Assembly: GCA_947632485.1 (NCBI GenBank)
Contig: CANRPJ010000001.1
Span: forward strand, 154,202-218,201
DNA: 64,000 nt
Direction of reading: 5' to 3'
Source: an uncultured Muribaculaceae bacterium
GTDB taxonomy: Bacteria; Bacteroidota; Bacteroidia; Bacteroidales; Muribaculaceae
Made by a program: the position numbers and the translations under genes
Notes under the pieces: generated by a model
The model's input: the letters and a program-made list of their open reading frames with translations, nothing else
Database searches by the model: none
What the model was told of the DNA's origin: nothing
Shown here: positions 3,246 to 48,320 of the stretch, one piece after another
How positions within the stretch are numbered: the first letter of the stretch is position 1
How the letters are laid out: the number at the start of each line of letters is the position of its first letter

Positions 3246-3288
3246 TATCTCTAAATCCCGTAACTTGATTTCTCTTTCAGAAAAGTTT

Positions 3289-3376
3289 AATTGTTTTGTT
3301 TTTTACGCAAAGAGCGATTTTAATTGTTTGGATTTTTACAGAATTGAAACAATAAATTGTTTGGATTTTTACAGAA
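3289..3376 (+). repeat. Phased direct-repeat array A: three 22-nt repeats, period 33 bp
   Basis: 3289 aattgttttgttttttacgcaa; 3322 aattgtttggatttttacagaa; 3355 aattgtttggatttttacagaa. The last two are identical. Confidence 0.9.
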
Positions 3377-3450: not shown

Positions 3451-4818
3451 ATGTATTTGAAAAGACTTATAGACAGTTATCTTGATAAATGGGCTATCAG
3501 TAAAGATCATAAACCTATTTTGCTGAGGGGCGCAAGACAAGTAGGAAAATCTACTGTAGTCAGGCATCTTGGAGAAGCATTTGATAGTTTTGTTGAGATA
3601 AATTTTGAGAGGCAGCCTGAATATAAGAATGTCTTTAAGCGAGATCTGATAGTAGATCGAATAGTATCAGAACTTTCGGCAATCAGCGCTATAAAAATTG
3701 TTCCCGGGCAGACACTATTGTTTCTTGATGAAATTCAAGAATGTCAAGAAGCAATCATGTCCTTGAGATTCTTTAAGGAGGAGATGGCTGATCTTCATGT
3801 TATTGCTGCAGGGTCGCTTCTCGAATTTGCTCTTTCTGAGCTTCCAACATTTGGAGTAGGACGAATTCATAGTATGTATATGTATCCTATGACATTTGAT
3901 GAATTTCTTGATGCTAATGGTGAAACAATTTTACTCGACTATAAGAAAAACGCTTCGCCAGACCGCCCTTTACCAGAACCTCTCCATAACAAATTGATAG
4001 CCTTAATCAGATCCTATTTCCTTGTAGGAGGCATGCCTGAAGTAGTTGGCAAATGGGTAGAGACCCATGACTATCTGCAGTGTCAGGAGTTGCAAGATGA
4101 TATAGTAAGCGGATATGAAGACGATTTTCCAAAATATAAGAGAAAGATTGATTCAGCGCTTCTACGCCTTACGATGAGAAGCGCAGCCGTACAGGTTACT
4201 AAAAAATTTTCCTATTCGGAAGTCGGTGGTGGTCACAGAATAGAAGAGGTTAAAAAAGCTCTTGAAATGCTTCTGCTTGCGGGTATTTGTATCCCGGTTG
4301 TAAGAACAGATGCAAATGGCCTACCACTCGGAAGCGAATCCGATTCAAAATATCGGAAAATATTAATTCTTGATTCTGGATTGATGTTACGTCTGCTTAA
4401 TATGTCATCTATAGATATATCAAAGATTACGAGTGAAATACTCACAGAAGATCCCACCAATCTAGTTAATAAGGGGCCTTTGGCAGAAATGGTTGCAGGT
4501 CTTGAGCTACTGAGATATAAGACTCCCAACTTAAGGCACGAATTGTATTATTGGGTTAGACTTGCCAAAAACTCACAGGCAGAAATTGATTATGTAGAAG
4601 CATCTGATGGGATTCTTCCCATTGAGATAAAGGCTGGAATGAAAGGCGGTATGAAAAGTCTATGGATTTTTATGCGTGAAAAGAAACTATCTTCGGCCGT
4701 AAGGTGTTCGCTTGAGAATTTCAATCGATTTGAATACATTGATAAAGAAGCATCTGGAGAAGTGCGAAATGTAGAAATTTGTCCTCTATATGCTATTTCG
4801 AATCTTGTTAAACCATGA
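3451..4818 (+). CDS. ATP-binding protein, AAA (AAA_14) + DUF4143-type
   Basis: LLRGARQVGKSTVVRHLG Walker A; LLFLDEIQEC Walker B; C-terminal EIDYVEASDGILPIEIKAG typical of the DUF4143 tail. Confidence 0.92.
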   Translation: MYLKRLIDSYLDKWAISKDHKPILLRGARQVGKSTVVRHLGEAFDSFVEINFERQPEYKNVFKRDLIVDRIVSELSAISAIKIVPGQTLLFLDEIQECQEAIMSLRFFKEEMADLHVIAAGSLLEFALSELPTFGVGRIHSMYMYPMTFDEFLDANGETILLDYKKNASPDRPLPEPLHNKLIALIRSYFLVGGMPEVVGKWVETHDYLQCQELQDDIVSGYEDDFPKYKRKIDSALLRLTMRSAAVQVTKKFSYSEVGGGHRIEEVKKALEMLLLAGICIPVVRTDANGLPLGSESDSKYRKILILDSGLMLRLLNMSSIDISKITSEILTEDPTNLVNKGPLAEMVAGLELLRYKTPNLRHELYYWVRLAKNSQAEIDYVEASDGILPIEIKAGMKGGMKSLWIFMREKKLSSAVRCSLENFNRFEYIDKEASGEVRNVEICPLYAISNLVKP

Positions 4819-28089: not shown

Positions 28090-28874
28090 CCGTTGCTACC
28101 AGGCTGCAAGTCCTGATAGCTACAGTTGGCCGAAGGATTGAAAATATACCGCCACTCCCGGTTGTGCCGGGGGTGGCTTATTTGATTGGGTGGCAGAAGC
28201 CGGGAGAAGAGATCCCTGAAGAGCTGGCTAAGCGTGCCGATATCAAGGTCATGGCATCGCCAGGTATCGGATTGAGCCGCAACCGCAATTTCCTTTTTGA
28301 AAACGCTACAGCCGAACTCCTCCTGATTTCTGATGACGATTTGATCTATGAGGCAGAAGCACTCGAGGGAGTAATCCGCGCCTTCGATTCCAACCCTGAA
28401 TGCCAGCTACTTACTTTTCGTCATGCCGGAACTTCCAGGACCTATCCCGACGCTGGCTACGACTTGCTCAACCCTCCTAAAGGCACCTATACTACATCAT
28501 TTGAAATCGCGCTTCGGAGAAATTCAGAAGTCGGGAATATGCGTTTCGACGAGCGCTTCGGAATAGGTGGCACACTCTTCAGTGCCGCAGAAGACGATCT
28601 TTTCATGCTTCGTGCCCGTCAGGCCAGAATTCCTGGTCAGTATCTGCCTTTGACATTATGTACTCACCCCGGTCCTTCTACGGGTCAGCGCATACCAGAG
28701 AGGGGAGTCCTCGAAGCCTGGGGAGCATATATAGCGCTGGCGCACCCGGCTTGGCAATGGCCATTGAGGCTATACCTCAAAGCCTTACGCCTCTCTCGAT
28801 CCGGTCAAAAATCATTCTGGCCCTCCCTCCGCGGCCTCCTCTCCGGCCTCCACAAACTCCACTCCAACCCATAA
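28086..28874 (+). CDS. Glycosyltransferase family 2-like protein
   Basis: LSRNRNFLFENATAELLLISDDDLIYEAEALEGVIRAF (DDD motif), RFDERFGIGGTLFSAAEDDLFMLRARQA. Overlaps the upstream SPT gene by 4 nt. Confidence 0.75.
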   Translation: MTVATRLQVLIATVGRRIENIPPLPVVPGVAYLIGWQKPGEEIPEELAKRADIKVMASPGIGLSRNRNFLFENATAELLLISDDDLIYEAEALEGVIRAFDSNPECQLLTFRHAGTSRTYPDAGYDLLNPPKGTYTTSFEIALRRNSEVGNMRFDERFGIGGTLFSAAEDDLFMLRARQARIPGQYLPLTLCTHPGPSTGQRIPERGVLEAWGAYIALAHPAWQWPLRLYLKALRLSRSGQKSFWPSLRGLLSGLHKLHSNP

Positions 28875-28950
28875 ATCCCAATAAATCCCAATAATTCCCA
28901 ATAATTCCCGCTTAATCCCGATAAATCCTGATAAATCCTGATAAATCATG
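28871..28950 (+). repeat. 10-bp phased tandem array, left (8 units of ATAAATCCCR-like sequence)
   Basis: ataaatccca ataaatccca ataattccca ataattcccg cttaatcccg ataaatcctg ataaatcctg ataaatcatg. Confidence 0.92.
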
Positions 28951-31200: not shown

Positions 31201-31260
31201 GATAAATCCCGATAAATCAAGCTTATTCCCGATAAATCCCGTTTAATCTCGCTTAATCCC
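31201..31260 (+). repeat. 10-bp phased tandem array, right (6 units)
   Basis: gataaatccc gataaatcaa gcttattccc gataaatccc gtttaatctc gcttaatccc. Confidence 0.9.
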
Positions 31261-45121: not shown

Positions 45122-45298
45122 ATGAGCCTTCCAAAAGATCCTTTTATGCTGCTGAGCGTGGTTAACACCAAGCTGCGCGATGAATATGAATCGCCGTCAG
45201 AAATGTGCGCTGCCCTGGGTGAAGATCTGTCTGCAATTGATAAGCGGCTAAATGATGCCGGCTTTGCTTACGATGCAGCTCAGAACCAGTATCGCTGA
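45122..45298 (+). CDS. DUF4250-like small protein (58 aa)
   Basis: Not in the ORF track. Reads MSLPKDPFMLLSVVNTKLRDEYESPSEMCAALGEDLSAIDKRLNDAGFAYDAAQNQYR*; -7 TATCTTTG at 45088-45095. Confidence 0.85.
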   Translation: MSLPKDPFMLLSVVNTKLRDEYESPSEMCAALGEDLSAIDKRLNDAGFAYDAAQNQYR

Positions 45299-45404
45299 AG
45301 AAACGGCAAAAATCACCGCTTTCGACTTGAAAAAGCGGCAGATTTCTTCAAAATATCCTTGAAAAAACGGCAATAATCGCTAATTTTGCCTTGAAAAAGC
45401 GGCA
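45294..45404 (+). repeat. Phased direct-repeat array B: four 15-nt repeats, period exactly 32 bp
   Basis: 45294 gctgaagaaacggca; 45326 cttgaaaaagcggca; 45358 cttgaaaaaacggca; 45390 cttgaaaaagcggca. Confidence 0.9.
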
Positions 45405-45451
45405 CCAAGCAGCGCAACCCACTAATAATCAACTAAACAACACAAAGCATA

Positions 45452-45541
45452 ATGCTCTATAGACATTTATCCGCATATATTGAAGAGTTTTATAAAACTT
45501 CAAGGAATGCTTTGTTGCTTACAGGAGCACTTAATCTGTAA
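45452..45541 (+). pseudogene. Truncated N-terminal relic of an AAA/DUF4143-type ATPase
   Basis: MLYRHLSAYIEEFYKTSRNALLLTGALNL*; matches the family N-terminus (cf. MYLKRLIDSYLDKWAISKDHKPILLRGARQVGKS at 3451) up to the start of Walker A, then ends. Confidence 0.7.
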
Positions 45542-45581
45542 GATCTTTACAGAGATAAGTTACTCTGACTCTTTAAGATGC

Positions 45582-45642: not shown

Positions 45643-48320
45643 TTATCGGTTTGAACGCTTTATTGAGCCGGCAAGATTAGCATTGAATGAATCTTCGCCA
45701 TTAAGCTGCTCGAGAGTGATGTGCATACGGTAACGCCAGTAATGCTCCGGATTCGAGGGCTCATTGATTTGCTCTTCGCGCGGGTCATGGCGACGGAGTT
45801 TAGGATCTGCCGAGAGCCAATCCTGCAATGGAATTATGCAAAGCATTGAAGGGCTTTCAAGATGGAGTTTCAAGATTTTCTCACAAATCCAAGGCTCTGC
45901 ATAGAAAGGAGAACCTCCCGGCTCATGGAGCACTTCTGAATAATACCTCTGGGAGCGCGCAGGGTCAGATTCCCACCACTGACGAATACCCGGCATATCA
46001 TGAGTCGATGTGGTGCACACGCTGAGATAGGGATAGCGCCAGGTGTCGGCAAATGTCTCCTTAGGATCTTTAGGCATACGCTGAATCTCCAGAGAGAGTA
46101 TCTGAAGACGATGCATCACATCGGGCACACAGGAGGGTATCATGCCGAGATCTTCCGCACAGCATAGCATCCGGGTAGCATCGATGAGAGGGGGCAGCTT
46201 CCACAAAGCTTTTCCTTTCCAGAAATCATCATTGCGATGATAGAAGAAATCATTGTAAAGAGCATCGAAAGCACCTTTATTCCATTGGCTAAGACGACGG
46301 TACTGATATGTGAACTGTGCAGATATCCTCGGGTGATAATAGCCTTTGCGATAGGGATCTTCGATGAAAAGCACATCATCGATCAGCCCGAGCAGCGCAT
46401 TACAGATCTTATCATTTTTCTCCGTCTTATCCTGTTGGGCAAAATAGGCAGCCACTTTTTTCTGAGTATCAACAAAGTCGAGAAGCTGATACCGTCCGTC
46501 ACCAATAGGCTTCAGGAAGCGCTCCTTGACCTCCTCAGTGAAGGGAGCGAAGAAATCGTTGAGAAACCAATCCTCGATGAGCGGATTAGTGTGAAGGTCT
46601 ACATCAAGATGAAATCCTCTTGCCGATAGCTCCTCAGGGCTGAAAGGAAGAGCAGGATTAAACACTCCCAGAAGCCCGTGAAGCTCGCTTTCCGGTATCT
46701 GCCAGATGCGGAAGAAACCGAGGATATGATCAATACGGTAGGCATCGAAATATTCCGCCATCTTGCGGAATCTTGCTTTCCACCATGCGAAACCGTCTTT
46801 CGCCATCTCGTCCAGTTGTAGGTGGGGAAGCCCCAGTTCTGACCGAACACTGAGAAGTCATCGGGCGGAGCTCCGGCCTGAGAATTGAGATTGAAAAGCT
46901 TAGGCGATTGCCATGCATCTACACTATGGCGACCTATTCCGATAGGCACATCACCTTTGAGCACGACTCCAAGGCTTCGCGCATAGTCGCGTGCACCCCG
47001 CAACTGACGGTCAAGGTGATACTGAACGAAACAGTAATAGCCGATTTCATCGCGTTTTTGGGCTATAAAAGTGGCTATTTTCTCTTTTTCATACGCTGAA
47101 TAAGCGCCCCAACGGGTTTCATCGGGGGTACAGTATTCATCGCGGAGCACGCTCCAGGCAGCATACGGCAACAGCCAATGGCGGTTAGCCTCAAAGAAGG
47201 CAAGATAGGGGGCAGAGGTAAGGGTATTGGCACCATCTTGTTTATAAATGGCACGGAGCCACTCATTCTTTGTATCGTTAACTCTTTCGTAATCTACCTG
47301 CGGAAGCGCATTGAGCTCCTTGCGCACCTTTTCAAAGGCCTCAGCCTTAGCCTTATCTTTAAGCGTACCGACATCTTCGAGCCTCAGGAACATCGGGTGA
47401 AGCGCAAAGGTAGAATTAGCTCTGTAGGGATAGGAATCAACCCACGTACCGGTAAGTGTAGTATCATTGACCGGAAGAAGCTGAAGCACTTTCTGCCCGG
47501 TAGCGGCACACCATTCCGCCATCATCTTCAGGTCGGAGAAATCTCCTACTCCGAAGTCAGCCTCCGAACGCAGCGAGAATACCGGTATCGCAGTTCCGGC
47601 ACCTCTCCAGGGCGCAAAGGGACTCACGGCCCGCAATCCGGCTATCACAATCTGATCGAGAGCATCATGCGACGGCAGCAGTAGATTACGGTTATCGCGC
47701 GCTTCCCACGCCTCGATTCTCCGGGTTTCCTTATCTAAAATCAGCAACTTATATTCGCAAGCCTCAGGCATTCCGGCAAGGGGCACATCGAGAGTCCATA
47801 GAGGGAAACGGGCATCGTTGAAAATCAGTGCCTTTTCAGGATTCCATTTACCCAATACCTCCGGCTCACCGAGAAGCGCGAGAACCTGACCGGGTCCTAC
47901 AAGAGGTGCCTCGACGCAGATACGGAGGGTGCCGGGACGAGACGGCGCTTCTTCATCTCTCTTTCCACGACGGAAAAATCCTCCCGTAAACGCTGATGAA
48001 TACGCGAATTTGTCGGCCGGCATATCCTGCCACCAGTCTTCGATTATGATAGCTCCTGCGCCCCTCGCCACAGTCAGGGAGTGAGGTGCGCCCCATTCTC
48101 TACGGCTTACGTGGCCATCTGTAGTCCTTACCAGATAGTGGTAAGTCAGTACCGTCGGGGGTTCCGGGCAATCGATTGTAAGGCTCCACGTATCAGGACC
48201 AGTAAGCTCCATAGCCGGGCATACCGATTCATCAGTCGAGCCGAGCAGGGGAATGGCGCCGCACACTGCGAGCTGCTGTCCCCATTCGGTGTGGTAGCGA
48301 AGATTGAACTTGATTTTCAT
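45643..48320 (-). pseudogene. malQ: 4-alpha-glucanotransferase (CBM20-like + GH77), interrupted by an apparent 1-nt frameshift
   Basis: ORF 46599-48320 (N-terminal, ...FGQNWGFPTYNW) and ORF 45643-46806 (MAKDGFAWWKARFRKMAEYFDAYRIDHILGFFRIW...) are adjacent parts of one GH77 protein in different frames. Confidence 0.88.

Follow-up and report, generated by a model that had tools for sequence, protein, structure and literature searches.

According to the accessible part of the source, PDC-S01 is a PADLOC phage defence candidate defined by AAA_14 and DUF4143, an ATPase fused to a PD-(D/E)XK domain. It is given there as the fourth commonest candidate defence system of prokaryotes, with about 39,000 loci, and as experimentally unvalidated (PMC12988326). 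The intact relatives studied here, and an ATPase within the analysed DNA, match the PDC-S01 profiles (E values down to 1e-189), with agreement in fold and invariant residues. In contrast to what is described below, the accessible portions of the published accounts cover only the protein and do not mention a cognate promoter-embedded array; no description of such arrays was found in the accessible portions of the literature on DUF4143 or PDC-S01. Here we report that one of the commonest untested defence candidates has, throughout the family, an array that is specific to each copy and embedded in its promoter.

The autorepressor RptR represses its own defence operon via three direct repeats overlapping the -10 box; the protein is small and dimeric, and its 9-bp repeats contain a 6-bp palindrome (PMC12255303). 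By analogy, RptR would be a close functional parallel to the idea that the ATPase represses its own gene through its array. It differs in that, in the ATPase system, regulation would fall to the candidate effector itself, the units lie 32–33 bp apart, and the motif is clade-dependent. Archaeal Orc1/Cdc6 with its origin recognition boxes, and plasmid Rep with its iterons, also have a row of boxes beside the protein's own gene, and Orc1/Cdc6 has the AAA+ and winged-helix domains in common with the ATPase. The ATPase differs from both in its added PD-(D/E)XK domain and strict promoter register, and there are no data on an origin function. The target-selector AAA+ proteins MuB, TnsC and IstB are DNA-bound and attract transposition; the ATPase has MuB and TnsC among its structural matches, and ends of an IS3-family element lie beside the arrays. 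No transposase partnership has been shown for the ATPase, however, and we know of no IS3 element that uses a MuB/TnsC/IstB-like AAA+ protein.

The window array and its ATPase relic

The window, which is the whole stretch of DNA analysed, comprises 64,000 nucleotides from an uncultured Muribaculaceae bacterium. At 45294–45404 on the forward strand it carries four units, with starts at 45294, 45326, 45358 and 45390 and a pitch of exactly 32 bp. The preliminary description had reported four phased 15-mers at this pitch, and both positions and spacing were reproduced; 0 of 200 shuffles of the upstream stretch contained at least three phased units. Units 2 (45326–45340) and 4 (45390–45404) are exact copies of CTTGAAAAAGCGGCA, unit 3 (CTTGAAAAAACGGCA, 45358–45372) differs from it at one position, and unit 1 (GCTGAAGAAACGGCA, 45294–45308) is degenerate, with four mismatches. 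The setting is chromosomal and intergenic, between a DUF4250-like gene at 45122–45298 and a minus-strand ORF at 45643–46806, which the preliminary description calls malQ. Unit 1 does overlap the stop codon of the DUF4250-like gene (TGA, 45296–45298), as had been claimed. The 14-mer TTGAAAAARCGGCA of the array has a single locus in the whole 2.6-Mb genome, and when two mismatches are allowed the other genome matches to the window motif are scattered singles.

The forward-strand ORF at 45452–45541, whose start codon lies 62 bp 3' of the start of unit 4, has 29 codons reading MLYRHLSAYIEEFYKTSRNALLLTGALNL before the stop and represents about the first 26 codons of an AAA_14-DUF4143 ATPase. It aligns with the intact ATPase N-terminus at 60.5% over 38 codons (46.6 bits), and its break point falls inside the Walker A motif, between GA and RQTGKT, bearing out the earlier suggestion of an ATPase-family N-terminus cut at Walker A. 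The ORF is an N-terminal relic of a PDC-S01-type ATPase; as a 29-aa homologous remnant it does not qualify as a functional member. When the genus was searched with the DNA of this region, seven further species proved to have the same 32-bp arrays. In three of them (L016, L017 and L018) the array is followed by an intact protein of 448–453 aa, about 40–55 bp past the start of the last unit, with N-terminus MLYRKATQYIEDFYRTSKNALLLTGARQTGKTY in L016. Identity to that family is only about 32% for the closest intact ATPase encoded in the window's own genome, so the window array lacks a cognate protein. The array is an orphan relic whose cognate ATPase is absent from its genome, and its four units are what survives of the control region of an ATPase-nuclease gene that has been lost.

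Among the relatives found, conservation does not extend to the DUF4250 neighbourhood, and for that reason no intact copy at the cysK/DUF4250-malQ site was recovered. In one relative (L119), a degenerate tandem repeat (about GATTATCTTCGGGTTA) lies directly 3' of the DUF4250 gene. A C-terminal remnant in the window relic is not claimed, the only candidate being a resemblance of about 10 bp (TAAGATCTTT, near 45540). At 45536–45552, immediately 3' of the relic, lies a near-perfect palindrome, CTGTAAGATCTTTACAG, which is either a terminator or a leftover of the gene end.

Orphan arrays are common elsewhere, in a sample biased by having been found through its arrays. ATPase relics at L014, L015, L019, L247, L251, L257 and L277 keep the array with 0–84 N-terminal codons, and L014, L015, L019 and L257 retain the last codons too. 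Loss thus tends to take nearly the whole coding part in one deletion, which strong selection against the ATPase protein would explain.

The window holds a second locus, in which array A, three forward-strand units of TTAATTGTTTgGaTTTTTACagAA at 3287–3374, precedes its intact owner, an AAA_14-DUF4143 ATPase of 455 aa at 3451–4818 on the same strand (PADLOC PDC-S01, E=1e-135). The preliminary description had proposed two loci in the window with an ATPase and an array of matching spacing. Array A is real and stands before an intact ATPase, but its units lie 33 bp apart, not 32. Paralogues within this genome have different array motifs, and neither motif in the window forms arrays elsewhere in it.

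Pairing of arrays with AAA_14-DUF4143 genes

Upstream DNA was obtained for 96 distinct family genes from 111 congeneric genomes, and an array was scored where at least three 12-mer units (at least 10/12 identity) lay within 250 bp of the start codon. Arrays were observed in 87 of the 96 genes, compared with repeats of at least three units of any kind in 12 of 237 unrelated neighbouring genes; composition shuffles gave 0/96. Among the 237 controls, the only array of 32–34 bp belonged to L012, itself a DUF4143 gene. Unit spacings in the genus were 32 bp (53 cases), 33 bp (150) and 34 bp (14). Spacing is 23 bp in the 'PRIAD' subfamily (L005, L096) and also in L301, another DUF4143 gene; one genus gene has 40 bp. 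L052, counted among the nine negatives, has an array about 275 bp upstream; no direct-repeat array was seen in family members L004, L007, L011, L102, L156 and L157. A pattern search of the genus for exact three-unit arrays of GAAAAGTGT yielded over 40 matches, and none for the pattern in reverse.

A global scan of one genome per species across GTDB found at least three units in 71 of 80 relatives and two in the other nine, against 3/197 controls, one of which was again a DUF4143 gene. As in the genus, the units of these arrays, scored within 250 bp of the start codon, are nearly always spaced at 32–34 bp. The hits are labelled as Clostridia, Bacteroidales, Fibrobacter, Treponema, Akkermansia, other Verrucomicrobia, a planctomycete, Dehalococcoidia and a euryarchaeote; these labels come from MAGs, which may be misbinned. 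Plasmid-borne relatives of Collinsella, Agathobacter and Bacteroidales also have arrays in front, and the plasmid copies in Collinsella (Actinomycetota) and Agathobacter (Bacillota) have four 33-bp units each. The control genes and shuffles rule out chance repetition as a reading of the arrays.

A DUF4143 branch of about 390 aa, represented by L004 in the window's own genome, almost always lacks direct arrays, the exception being L143 with three 22-bp repeats. In this branch (L125–L153, L004), a palindrome of about 35 bp overlapping the promoter or start was found in 17/28 genes versus 13/234 controls, scored where arms paired at 12/14 or more near the start (upstream 100 bp). DUF4143 genes in general thus appear to have operator-like DNA, the geometry of which depends on the branch.

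The array–ATPase pairing is far wider and more precise than the preliminary description claimed. Its prediction that such repeats would not be equally common beside unrelated genes held in the genus and worldwide. Of its proposal of a general system of ATPase and own array, with variable sequence and conserved geometry, the generality and the variability stand, but the geometry is fixed per subfamily and is not universal: 32–34 bp, or 23 bp, or a single palindrome of about 35 bp.

At L311:143-1159, a Fic-family gene with an HTH follows an array of 23-bp period, beside an IS3 end; such arrays may also occur with genes other than DUF4143 ones, or this gene may have adopted an orphan array. An intergenic sequence, GTTTAGTTAGATATAGTTTATAGTGGAATC, recurs at L117, L118, L119 and L049, followed in some copies by an inverted repeat, and has no Rfam match.

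Protein, motif and promoter register

The protein scores above the Pfam cut-offs for AAA_14 and DUF4143, and the intact relatives and the in-window ATPase belong to PDC-S01 by whole-protein profile (E=3.8e-189 for L016). Invariant residues are G25..G30-K31, D91-E92, E339 and E378-x-K380, with D365 nearly invariant, and the family thereby has the Walker A/B and PD-(D/E)XK catalytic residues. The AlphaFold model (mean pLDDT 87.7) comprises an AAA domain, a helical linker, a winged helix (about 233–307) and a PD-(D/E)XK domain, these names being a reading of predicted secondary structure. The closest PDB folds, with modest TM-scores, are PABY2304, then Orc1/Cdc6 on DNA, Avs5, MuB and TnsC; a sequence search for solved homologues gave only weak matches to the AAA domain.

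Within arrays, agreement among units is 0.80–0.97 at offsets -2 to +9 around GAAAA and mostly 0.3–0.6 in the spacer. This contrast between conserved offsets and variable spacer indicates a motif that is maintained and not freshly duplicated. The commonest unit core is GAAAAGTGTA, with TTG or TAG in front, and clades have their own variants: GAAAAACGGCA in the window clade, GAAAACGCAG, GAAAAGTAGGTA and GAAAAGGGAGT. Motif distance tracks protein distance (Mantel rho 0.30, p 0.0005), the units changing slowly along with the protein. With overall distance controlled, co-variation peaks at the wing (281–304) and at 81–112, but is weak, with a partial r of about 0.3 and no phylogeny correction; 81–112 scores about like the wing, and the peaks are only suggestive. 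None of 232 gene pairs at 60–90% protein identity shares its upstream flank, and each retains an array, so array and gene relocate together.

The arrays are not CRISPR arrays: the core is 12 bp, the spacers are partly alike, almost all arrays have 3–7 units, and they are embedded in promoters. No cas gene was among the annotated neighbours seen. An RNA element was likewise rejected, there being no Rfam match for the arrays.

Bacteroidota promoters have the -33/-7 form TTTG-N19/20-TAnnTTTG. Of 62 genes with GAAAA-type arrays, 53 have a TAnnTTTG -7 box within the last 110 bp, as against 49/237 controls, and in 44 of these 53 the distance from a unit's GAAAA to the start of the box is 8–9 or 19–20 bp. 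The last unit is usually 13–100 bp 5' of the start codon. In the window, TTG at 45359–45361 in unit 3 was placed as the -33 box, and the -7 box is TAATTTTG at 45381–45388 (forward strand), at offset 20 from the GAAAA of unit 3, the register of the intact close relatives. This fixed register makes the array part of the promoter, and a role of the array there is hence likely.

Possible roles of the array

We judge it probable, with real room for doubt, that the array is the cognate operator of an autoregulating AAA+/winged-helix/PD-(D/E)XK ATPase. Pairing, geometry, the co-drift of motif and protein, promoter register, joint mobility and the relic status of the window copy are observed; from these we infer binding by the ATPase, repression and a role in defence. 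In an autoregulatory operator the repeats are expected to lie over or next to the promoter of the gene itself, in fixed register, as is the case here (44/53 genes; offset 20 in the window). Against it, 3–7 units exceed the needs of simple repression, a few family members have no direct-repeat array, and the co-variation of motif and protein is weak. In the proposed mechanism, ATPase protomers would occupy successive units via the winged helix, with the pitch of bound protomers set by the protein subfamily. A row of protomers over its own promoter would keep expression low until the bound protein is lost or redeployed. A private motif per copy would allow paralogues to coexist without cross-regulation, while array and gene move jointly. 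A deletion removed the coding part of the window copy, leaving an orphan array that retains its promoter-shaped sequence.

These data suggest that every copy of a very common protein, suspected of acting against phage, recognises a DNA address of its own. A copy-specific DNA partner, present next to nearly all sampled members of the ~450-aa branch, can be tested by gel shift and gives a direct handle on recognition and silencing, and the hundreds of natural protein–motif pairs are a ready data set for winged-helix recognition rules.

A less likely reading, which we nonetheless keep in view, is that the ATPase binds the array with a main role other than autoregulation. The array would then act as a sensor or as a platform for loading, in the manner of ORB boxes for Orc1/Cdc6 and iterons for Rep, and would serve sequestration, replication or the recognition of invading DNA. 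The resemblance of the AAA+ and winged-helix domains to origin-bound Orc1/Cdc6, the presence of MuB and TnsC among the matches, the invariant PD-(D/E)XK residues (D365 nearly so), the multi-unit arrays at fixed pitch and the PADLOC defence label all fit such a platform. However, the strictly upstream position, single orientation and fixed promoter register are what regulation predicts, and neither in-window motif forms arrays at other places in its genome.

An IS3-family element (HTH_Tnp_1 and rve) with right end TGTCTACTTTTTGAGGCTGGTACA was found at 20 distinct genus sites (L301, L303–L305, L307, L308, L310–L318, L320, L322, L324–L326). An array of at least three units lies 0–45 bp beyond the right end at 13/20 sites, versus 8/237 controls (Fisher 5e-12; L322 counted by its first unit, 16 bp beyond the IS3 end), and one of at least two units at 17/20. 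Three of five further family-level sites agree. The IS3 end always faces the array, whatever its motif or period, and tandem IS ends at single spots (L307, L312, L317) suggest repeated insertion. The element was not found in the plasmid collection. As the arrays have no common sequence, the leading ideas are that IS3 recognises them via the bound ATPase or is co-mobile with them; we have no test data for either. A solo IS end of 24 bp at L324, near position 1500, is flanked by the 20-bp direct repeat aattattgtatatatcttct and stands just before a 33-bp array.

These sites support a further, rather improbable reading, in which the array is the landing site or end of a mobile module, IS3 targets the array or the bound ATPase, and internally deleted copies are non-autonomous leftovers. 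The joint change of neighbourhood by array and gene, and the relics with 0–84 N-terminal codons and in several cases a C-terminal tail, would also fit. Yet there is no conserved right end and there are no inverted units downstream, most arrays have no IS, and an IS that parasitises the array without mobilising it would explain the association as well. Arrays occur only on the upstream side and in one orientation, and the cognate 10-mer (at most one mismatch) was found in the 24 kb downstream twice forward and never in reverse. A two-ended transposon with the array as one end was rejected, as no partner end or inverted units were found.

The operator reading and the IS3 association can be combined in a speculative picture, to which we give only limited credence: each ATPase would assemble at fixed pitch on a private DNA address, this address would be both operator and protein-marked beacon, and IS3 elements would find a safe place to land beside it by the bound protein and not by its sequence. 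If this is true, one of the commonest suspected immune genes is a self-addressed, DNA-bound system with a parasite tracking it. The IS3 association provides a second, independent probe of array occupancy in living cells.

Binding of the arrays by a host transcription factor would account for their overlap with host-type promoters, but paralogues in one genome differ in motif and the motif follows the protein across phyla, making this very unlikely. Curvature from phased A-tracts, or a transcribed RNA element, in either case without a specific protein partner, can be set aside: many units do have GAAAA at about three helical turns, but some subfamilies have no A-tracts (CCCTCATTGAGGG in L012, ATTCCTCTTGAT in L303), conserved bases lie outside the A-tract, and most of the array is 5' of the predicted transcript start, with no match in Rfam.

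The window also contains two intergenic repeats of 10-bp period, at 28871–28947 and 31201–31260, both of (G)ATAAATCCC and unrelated to the ATPase arrays.
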